A stretch of DNA of 20,118 bases, taken from positions 1 to 20,118 of the IMG/VR virus record IMGVR_UViG_3300040815_001840; one strand, given 5' to 3'. Within the stretch, counting starts at the first letter, position 1. Each line of letters opens with the position of its first letter. Shown here one piece after another: positions 6,123 through 20,118 of the stretch. The stretch is from a virus. Below the pieces are notes generated by a model, which saw only the letters and a list, made by a program, of their open reading frames with translations, was not told where the DNA came from and did not search any database. The position numbers and the translations under genes are program-made.

Positions 6123-6132
6123 TATACTTATA
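6123..6132 (+). promoter_or_regulatory. Late-type promoter motif TATACTTATA
   Basis: One-mismatch copy of the shared motif, 24 bases before the ATG at 6157 and just after the terminator. There is no -33 TTTG. Confidence 0.5.
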
Positions 6133-19636: not shown

Positions 19637-19664
19637 TTTATATCAAATATTTTTCGTATATTTG
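19633..19664 (+). promoter_or_regulatory. Host-type promoter P1 upstream of gp32-like gene
   Basis: TTTG (19633-19636), 20-base spacer, TATATTTG (19657-19664). Bases 19651-19670 are repeated exactly at 19785-19804. A start near 19670 would give a leader of about 8 bases to the ATG at 19678, or a long one to the gp32-like gene. Confidence 0.75.
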
Positions 19665-19804
19665 TATCAACAAAAATATGAAAGAGATGAATCCAAGCAA
19701 TTTAGACTATGATGGAATGGGTAATTTCAGTAGATTTCCACCCAATGAAAAAAAAGTTAAAAAGAGTTTGGATATGTGGAAAAGTTTTCGTATATTTGTA
19801 TCAA
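19651..19804 (+). repeat. 20-bp direct repeat (promoter duplication)
   Basis: Bases 19651-19670 and 19785-19804 are identical and include the -7 box and the sequence on both sides. The identity exceeds what the promoter consensus needs, so it suggests either duplication or a shared operator. Confidence 0.85.
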
Positions 19805-19842
19805 ATAAATCTCAAAAGTCCACCAAAAATAGGGTTTCTTGA
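19678..19842 (+). CDS. Possible small ORF (54 residues) in gp32 control region
   Basis: The ATG at 19678 comes shortly after promoter P1 and opens MKEMNPSNLDYDGMGNFSRFPPNEKKVKKSLDMWKSF. The remaining residues are encoded by promoter P2, which makes the C-terminus unlikely to be under protein-level selection. A TTG farther upstream in frame lies inside P1 and is not a sensible start. It may be a real small early protein, or simply the untranslated leader of the gp32-like gene. Confidence 0.4.
   Translation: MKEMNPSNLDYDGMGNFSRFPPNEKKVKKSLDMWKSFRIFVSNKSQKSTKNRVS
19767..19798 (+). promoter_or_regulatory. Host-type promoter P2 upstream of gp32-like gene
   Basis: TTTG (19767-19770), 20-base spacer, TATATTTG (19791-19798). 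The 20 bases 19785-19804 are identical to 19651-19670 in P1, 134 bases away. It lies inside the possible small ORF and about 118 bases before the gp32 start. Confidence 0.75.
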
Positions 19843-19850
19843 TATTTATA
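19841..19850 (+). promoter_or_regulatory. Late-type promoter motif GATATTTATA (gp32-like gene)
   Basis: Copy of the shared motif, 65 bases before the ATG at 19916. It gives the gp32-like gene a third, late-type start in addition to P1 and P2. Confidence 0.5.
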
Positions 19851-19853
19851 TAA

Positions 19854-19915
19854 GGTGTAGGAAAGACACCAAAATAAAACCAATAAAACAATTAAAACTT
19901 TAAAATTTAAAAATT
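19854..19915 (+). promoter_or_regulatory. Candidate gp32 autoregulatory leader
   Basis: A 5-bp hairpin GGTGT (19854-19858) / ACACC (19866-19870) is followed by about 45 bases of almost pure A/T with a few C and no G, running to the ATG. Four loop bases AAAG (19862-19865) could pair with CTTT (19898-19901) as a pseudoknot. T4 gp32 represses its own translation by binding a pseudoknot plus an unstructured AU-rich leader. The resemblance is in layout; function is inferred. Confidence 0.4.
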
Positions 19916-20118
19916 ATGGCACTAGATTTAAGCGCAATCAGAGGTAGACTGAACAAACTACAAAACACTTCCAACAGAACATCTAATCTTTGGAAACCCA
20001 CTCCGGGTAAACATCAAGTAAGAATCGTTCCTTACAAATTCTCTCCTGAGAATCCTTTCATTGAACTATTCTTCCACTACAACATCAACAACAAAACTTA
20101 CTTATCTCCATCTTCGTT
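19916..20118 (+). CDS. gp32: Single-strand DNA-binding protein, T4 gp32-like (3' end outside window)
   Basis: The first 67 codons are visible. The protein starts MALDLSAIRGRLNKLQNTS, a short basic/hydrophobic region like the one gp32 uses to bind its neighbour cooperatively. It continues LWKPTPGKHQVRIVPYKFSPENPFIELFFHYNINNKTYLSPSS, which matches the opening of the gp32 DNA-binding core (the WK...VRIVPY strand, then FFHYN...TYLSPSS). The zinc-binding part expected after this lies outside the window. Gp32 coats single-stranded DNA in replication, recombination and repair. Codons use more C in the third position than the virion genes, as in the polymerase gene, in keeping with early expression. 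Three promoter-like sites and an AT-rich leader precede it. Confidence 0.8.
   Translation, partial: MALDLSAIRGRLNKLQNTSNRTSNLWKPTPGKHQVRIVPYKFSPENPFIELFFHYNINNKTYLSPSS

Follow-up and report, generated by a model that had tools for sequence, protein, structure and literature searches.

A Conserved Pseudoknot and a G-Free Tract before Gene 32 of T4-Like Phages: A Candidate Autogenous Operator

Introduction

Why does the last gene of a viral DNA fragment have a leader that begins with a small hairpin and then runs to the start codon without a single G? The fragment, hereafter the window, is the whole stretch of 20,118 bases in virus record IMGVR_UViG_3300040815_001840, and its gene matches are those of a T4-like phage; they include a tail sheath gene (PHROG 23, 2.9e-72), a baseplate hub and an endolysin/amidase. 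A first-pass annotation, made from the letters alone, had compared this leader with the translational operator of T4 gene 32. According to the consulted passages of PMC535899, that operator combines an approximately 28-nt pseudoknot with a downstream stretch of over 40 nt that contains UUAAA/UAAA repeats; repression needs both parts, and the proposed role of the pseudoknot is to nucleate the cooperative binding of gp32. The consulted part of PMC3014915 also treats the autogenous mechanism of T4 gene 32.

The gene in question occupies positions 19916 to 20118 (+ strand), where the end of the window cuts it after its N-terminal 67 codons. A full-length relative, L005, encodes a protein that is identical to the window protein over all 67 visible residues and that matches the Pfam gp32 family at 1.2e-14 and PHROG 1192 at 4.2e-24. 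A PDB search with a 25-sequence profile gave 8gme (E 3.2e-5) and 1gpc (E 1.2e-4), both of which are T4 gp32 structures. A fold search with an AlphaFold model returned five matches at E ≤ 0.001, all of them gp32 of T4 or RB69; the model is of low confidence (mean pLDDT 63, pTM 0.48), and so the fold matches serve to back the identity derived from the sequence. Judged by these matches, the gene at the right end of the window is a true gp32 homologue. An acidic FDDLF C-terminus is present in 112 of the 114 distinct gp32 proteins of the window's clade, which is defined below. T4 gp32 binds zinc; unlike it, the clade proteins are without zinc cysteines and the LAST motif, as cysteine is absent from the first 200 residues in 111 of the 114 and (K/R)3(S/T)2 occurs in none of them.

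Sampling of Gene 32 Leaders

Scans for gp32 yielded 438 loci, many of them from shared contigs, and the gp32 start was placed in 436. The leaders tested were 213 distinct segments spanning -85 to -26, of which 91 come from the window's clade, defined by a gp32 identity of 68% or more to L005, and 122 from more distant gp32 genes. By motif, the 91 clade leaders are divided into class I (54 leaders, the window's type, to which the AGGACAG leaders L039, L161 and L274 also belong), class II (22), class III (4) and 11 others. We presume that the clade consists of T4-like phages with Bacteroidetes hosts. No isolate of the clade is present among 50,697 phage records, in which the best gp32 is 56% identical. 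Microcystis phage Mel-JY01 (PP395634.1) has a gp32 56% identical to that of L005 and a TATATTTG box upstream of it, and its host may therefore be a Bacteroidetes companion rather than Microcystis.

The Folded Element

In the window, the hairpin lies at positions 19854-19870 (+ strand, like all leader features given here) and consists of a 5-bp stem that closes the 7-nt loop AGGAAAG. The two strands of stem 1, GGTGT (19854-19858) and ACACC (19866-19870), are assigned by covariation. Within the loop we distinguish loop 1, which is the single base A at 19859, the 5' strand of stem 2, GG at 19860-19861, and loop 2, AAAG at 19862-19865. The A-rich loop 3, AAAATAAAA (19871-19879), is 8-10 nt long in the window's subclass and leads to the 3' strand of stem 2, CC at 19880-19881. 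The 45 bases from 19871 to 19915, which end at the ATG at 19916, contain no G, three TTAAA and five TAAA. The hairpin and the almost G-free leader of about 45 bases are thus present as the first-pass annotation had described them.

Taken alone, the window would not attract attention. Its minimum free energy is no better than chance (z = 0.08), and the hairpin of its 60-nt segment, which is identical in L014, has p = 0.285 against dinucleotide shuffles. The evidence that the window's element is real is comparative and owes nothing to single-sequence statistics.

The comparison begins with stem 1, for which covariation in the leaders of related phages had been proposed as a check. When 36 class I elements that had been picked with pairing required were aligned with MAFFT, 98.4% of the stem 1 cells proved to be paired versus 84.9% with shuffled partners, and 28 cells carry double changes versus 5.0 expected; neither the pairing nor the double-change count was reached in any of 500 shuffles. 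Sliding the register of stem 1 lowers the pairing to 30-52%. Further pair types show no excess over shuffles (9 versus 8.4, with 227 of the 500 shuffles doing as well). These figures are for class I, the class II alignment having been left out because of misplaced gaps, and L028, which is one base off in the MAFFT set, counts against the structure in them. A repeat that was independent of pairing selected elements by the loop motif only, which reduced 160 of the 278 clade loci to 19 distinct stem-loops. In this set 91 of the 95 stem cells are paired, whereas swapping the 3' strands gave a mean of 68.4 and a maximum of 79 in 2000 trials; of the four unpaired cells one is in L143 and three are in L199, a class III leader that was included accidentally. 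The wobble pairs in these stem-loops are five G.U and no A.C, which fits the sense RNA as the folding strand. On a gp32 protein tree of 69 rows, the five stem 1 pairs require at least 13, 5, 4, 2 and 13 changes; this is a quick tree, and two non-standard stem 1 cells (L034 and L064) are due to the fixed register. Some of the pair switches may come from recombination that exchanged whole leaders. Stem 1 is therefore kept by compensating changes in the relatives, and the hairpin on whose conservation the first-pass annotation had made its reading depend is conserved.

The second helix differs among the classes. In class II, an AGUUU-type sequence in the loop pairs with an AAACU-type sequence 3' of the stem (6-9 pairs), and the class III counterparts are ACAG(U) and (A)CUGU, with 4-7 pairs; in class I stem 2 is reduced to GG/CC, with a third pair in a few leaders. 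These descriptions come from a search that required pairing and are meant as descriptions only. A class-blind search for pseudoknots, with p ≤ 0.05 against shuffles, found them in all 22 of the class II and all four of the class III distinct leaders, in 8 of the 54 class I leaders, in 2 of the 11 other clade leaders and in 10 of the 122 leaders outside the clade. A hairpin beyond shuffles is present in 4 of the 54 class I leaders and in 12 of the 122 outside the clade. For the window, where stem 2 consists of GG/CC only, the case is made by the switches between GG/CC and AG/CU in its relatives: the second pair is G-C in 30 of 37 distinct class I leaders and A-U in six, with one leader unassigned, and it requires at least five changes on the 69-row gp32 tree. 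For the clade as a whole, the geometry is that of an H-type pseudoknot about 28 nt long, located in the leader's 5' portion.

The first-pass annotation had also suggested a pseudoknot, with a different partner for the loop, namely AAAG (19862-19865) with CTTT (19898-19901). The two are complementary as letters, but a Watson-Crick partner for the last four loop bases is kept in only 10 of 39 leaders, the window included, eight of them at the window's position; because two of the 39 rows are class III leaders and L255 has a wrong register, as many as three rows may count unjustly against that proposal. We rejected this pairing, and judging from the covariation the loop's partner is CC at 19880-19881. 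We hold it very probable that the folded structure is real in the clade, and the window's own two-pair second helix, which rests on covariation, is likely.

Eleven clade leaders were not classed. One of them, L061, keeps the pseudoknot, which lies near -105 because of an insert with its own inverted repeat, and L129 looks like a contig-end artefact. The element is missing from L079 and from eight leaders of the L031 type (L031, L032, L033, L035, L045, L207, L231 and L232), which means that it is dispensable. The L031-type leaders have, by eye, an inverted repeat CGGTG ... CACCG around a late-type promoter box, and the same repeat, also by eye, occurs alongside the pseudoknot in class II. A separate pseudoknot with a six-pair second helix, TTGACC/GGTCAA, is found in the gp32 leaders of L352 and L355 (p 0.00 and 0.033 with 60 shuffles).

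Linkage to Gene 32

The clade's pseudoknot is conserved and strictly linked to gene 32. To examine this, a class I covariance model was applied to 20 records, the longest of 289 kb; in the three largest the scoring covered 150 candidates. The gp32 leader was the best match in 17 of the records (16 at E < 1e-6 and one at 0.0028), and the three records without such a match are of class II, which lies outside the model's description. No site other than a gp32 leader scored better than E 0.069 in the 20 records. Two degenerate DNA patterns, built from known elements, were run on IMG/VR without reference to protein and matched at least 120 and 29 stretches, respectively. All 149 of the pattern matches listed lie 30-76 nt before a gp32 start; these starts were extrapolated from HMM matches, and many of the contigs were also among those reached by the gp32 scans. 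Rfam gave no match in the window at gathering scores and none in the leader at E ≤ 5.

The G-Free Tract and the Promoters

The composition of the leader is unusual as well. The unstructured A/U tract of the window leader exceeds 40 nt and carries UUAAA/UAAA repeats as far as the start; the equivalent stretch before 14 other genes of the window contains 3-9 G in each case. Among related loci, the combination of no more than one G with four or more TAAA occurs in 32 of 80 distinct gp32 leaders versus none of 210 other intergenic leaders, the ORFs behind which were called mechanically (ATG, 100 codons). The consulted passages of PMC6847099 and PMC9976891 describe Bacteroidetes as starting without Shine-Dalgarno pairing and favoring A upstream of the start, and those of PMC6847099 report that A-rich start regions increase translation in Flavobacterium johnsoniae. 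Because of the difference between the gp32 leaders and the other leaders, the tract exceeds an ordinary A-rich start region of this kind.

Which transcripts would carry the element depends on the promoters. Two TATATTTG boxes, at 19657-19664 and 19791-19798 (+ strand), match what we take to be a Bacteroidetes-type promoter box and are early promoter candidates; mRNAs from both would be early and contain the whole element, those from the second box starting near 19805. This second box sits within a small ORF of 54 codons (19678-19842, + strand), and a similar ORF precedes gp32 in L020. Among the elements listed, 20 of 54, including all of the window's subclass, have TATATTTG or TATATTAG within 120 nt upstream.

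A third box, TATTTATA at 19843-19850 (+ strand), is probably a late promoter because it recurs between other genes of the window. The + strand of the window has eight copies, of which six lie between genes (2523, 3125, 7146, 15705, 17975 and 19843; a count with no chance estimate) and two within a gene (12931 and 13008), and a variant, TATACTTATA, lies between genes at 6123 (+). Boxes of this type resemble TATAAATA, which we take to be the T4 late-promoter sequence. In the window's subclass the box ends 2-3 bases before the stem and in the other subclasses mostly 8-12 bases before it, the spacing having been corrected by eye where TATTTATATATA holds a second box. The suggestion that a late transcript would start inside the hairpin thus fits the window's subclass, in which part of the stem might be missing from the late mRNA, but not most of the others; in both cases the starts are predicted ones.

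A Possible Autogenous Operator

We think that the leader is best read as an autogenous translational operator of gp32 that would work like the one in T4, and we give this reading a probability of roughly 65%. The trigger would be gp32 in excess of the available single-stranded DNA. The first gp32 would be seeded at the pseudoknot, and more gp32 would then coat the 34-45 nt of G-free, UAAA-rich sequence (19871-19915 in the window) cooperatively, up to and past the start codon. With the start codon coated, the ribosome would be excluded and translation would be off. As the presumed hosts start on A-rich sequence and not on a Shine-Dalgarno, gp32 would compete for the ribosome's own tract. We infer such a host, and also the binding of gp32, its cooperativity, the repression and the sufficiency of the window's two-pair helix. 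The clade-wide lack of the LAST motif makes the operator reading slightly less likely.

Four other explanations were considered. In one, which we find rather unlikely, gp32 has no part: the fold would shield an abundant mRNA at its 5' end, and the tract would be a very strong non-Shine-Dalgarno start. The Flavobacterium results cited above speak for it, as do the late-type boxes 8-12 nt before the stem in most subclasses, which would put the pseudoknot at the 5' end of the late mRNA, and the candidate plain hairpins in the same region of more distant gp32 leaders. A stabilizer, however, has no need of a covarying second helix and might be expected before other genes, whereas in the searches described above the element was found only before gp32; furthermore, the window's tail sheath gene, which is expected to be highly expressed, has a leader with four G and no TTAAA. 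That the whole is a chance hairpin in an AT-rich leader would be in line with the window's own statistics, and for the clade this notion is refuted by the covariation and by the 149 of 149 listed matches before gp32; we give it next to no weight.

It is quite improbable that the element is the target of some other phage or host protein, such as a RegA-, polymerase- or CsrA-like regulator. CsrA sites resemble AGGA, and so does the loop of the window's subclass; yet the loop varies between subclasses (AGGAAAG, AAGAAAC, GACAGT, TAATAAGTTTG), where a protein that reads sequence would keep it, and the strict link to gene 32 alone also argues against such a target. A metabolite riboswitch of the small preQ1-I-like type would be very surprising. 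Riboswitches of the preQ1-I type have a short stem, a loop and an A-rich tail, and there is a general likeness to our 5-bp stem, loop and A-rich tail that pairs back, but the absence of Rfam matches, the lack of invariant pocket bases across the subclasses and a gene that is not metabolic all count against it. A precedent for another protein's target is the T4 polymerase, whose gene is preceded, according to the consulted part of PMC3014915, by a plain hairpin that the polymerase uses as its operator.

If the leader is indeed a gp32 operator, then a broader interpretation can be offered tentatively: that these leaders form a large, undescribed family of gp32-operator RNAs in T4-like phages whose hosts initiate without Shine-Dalgarno pairing, and that in them gp32 competes for the A-rich landing tract of the ribosome and the pseudoknot ranges from a full T4-like form (classes II and III) to the two pairs of the window to loss, possibly with more than one origin and with a late promoter that may cut the stem in the window's subclass. 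If so, one could watch how the RNA partner in a protein-RNA feedback loop is remodeled, and the late mRNA of the window's subclass may escape repression. The 91 distinct leaders of one clade, with a second helix that is full, minimal or absent, are a natural set for learning which features of the RNA target gp32 requires, and they also bear on how such a switch works in hosts without Shine-Dalgarno initiation.

Comparison with Known Systems

In the open-licence literature we found no report of a gp32 pseudoknot in phages other than T4, T2 and RB69. Among the known systems nearest to the element is the STAXI motif, presumably RF01728, to which no Rfam match was obtained; the class I model gives one strong match per record in 17 of 20 records and none in three. 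STAXI pseudoknots, as described in the consulted part of PMC2864571, are likewise often near genes for single-stranded-DNA-binding proteins, but they come as two or three in tandem, and the genes are cellular or mobile Ssb genes. The T4 gene 43 operator is similar in being autogenous, in belonging to a replication protein and in having a 5' hairpin (PMC3014915, consulted part); it differs in that this is a plain hairpin with a conserved loop before another gene.

More distant gp32 leaders, the L307 and L364 group, resemble the window in having a candidate plain hairpin in the same region before gp32: a possible stem of at least 5 bp is present in 76 of 79 distinct leaders (47 distinct stem-loops, counted with no shuffle control). 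They differ from it in that no second helix was seen and in having AGGAG before the start. The AGGAG is present in L307, L364 and their relatives even though Shine-Dalgarno initiation is rare in such hosts. Genes for ribosomal protein S21 are present in 4 of 14 records searched (those of L061, L070, L321 and L362), and none was found in the records of L424 and L431, which are fragments from the AGGAG group.

The T4-like isolates were searched under less strict settings, which admitted a stem 1 of at least 4 bp and a stem 2 of at least three pairs, and L449, an uncultured 484-kb phage, was left out because its gp32 start is ambiguous. For T4 itself the search returned UGCC/GGUA, a one-base loop A and GCUAUGA/UCAUAGC at -67 to -40 (p = 0.02), which we take to be the published operator. 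Pseudoknots at p ≤ 0.05 were found in three of the ten T4-like leaders, namely T4, NHEP10 and Klebsiella phage kv_tblp5, and for the latter two none of 100 shuffles was as good. The kv_tblp5 pseudoknot has the T4 geometry with another sequence, GTCC A GGTGCAA GGAC TCATG TTGCACC (stem 1 by eye). The seven leaders in which none was found at p ≤ 0.05 include RB49, Aeromonas L9-6 and cyanophage S-RIM44; the consulted part of PMC3014915 likewise gives the RB49 gene 32 leader as one without a pseudoknot.

Like the operator of T4, T2 and RB69, the window's element lies in the 5' leader of gene 32 and is probably an H-type pseudoknot about 28 nt long, at -62 to -35 where that of T4 is at -67 to -40, and an unstructured UUAAA/UAAA tract runs up to the start in both. 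The one-base loop 1 (A) is shared by T4, NHEP10 (gp32 85% identical to that of T4) and the window. The likeness claimed in the first-pass annotation consequently stands for the structured element, its size and place, the G-free leader and the gp32 gene, but not for the loop's partner. Unlike the T4 operator, the window's leader has no Shine-Dalgarno, its element has no sequence similarity to that of T4 by eye, and in the window's subclass stem 2 has only 2 bp, loop 2 has 4 nt and the A-rich loop 3 has 9 nt. Class III comes nearer to T4: L194 has helices of 6 and 5 bp with a 7-nt loop 3, and T4 has 4 and 7 bp with a 5-nt loop 3. Because sequence and helix lengths differ, and because seven of the ten T4-like leaders have no significant pseudoknot, a repeated origin appears as possible as descent from the T4 operator, and loss followed by regain would fit these comparisons equally well.
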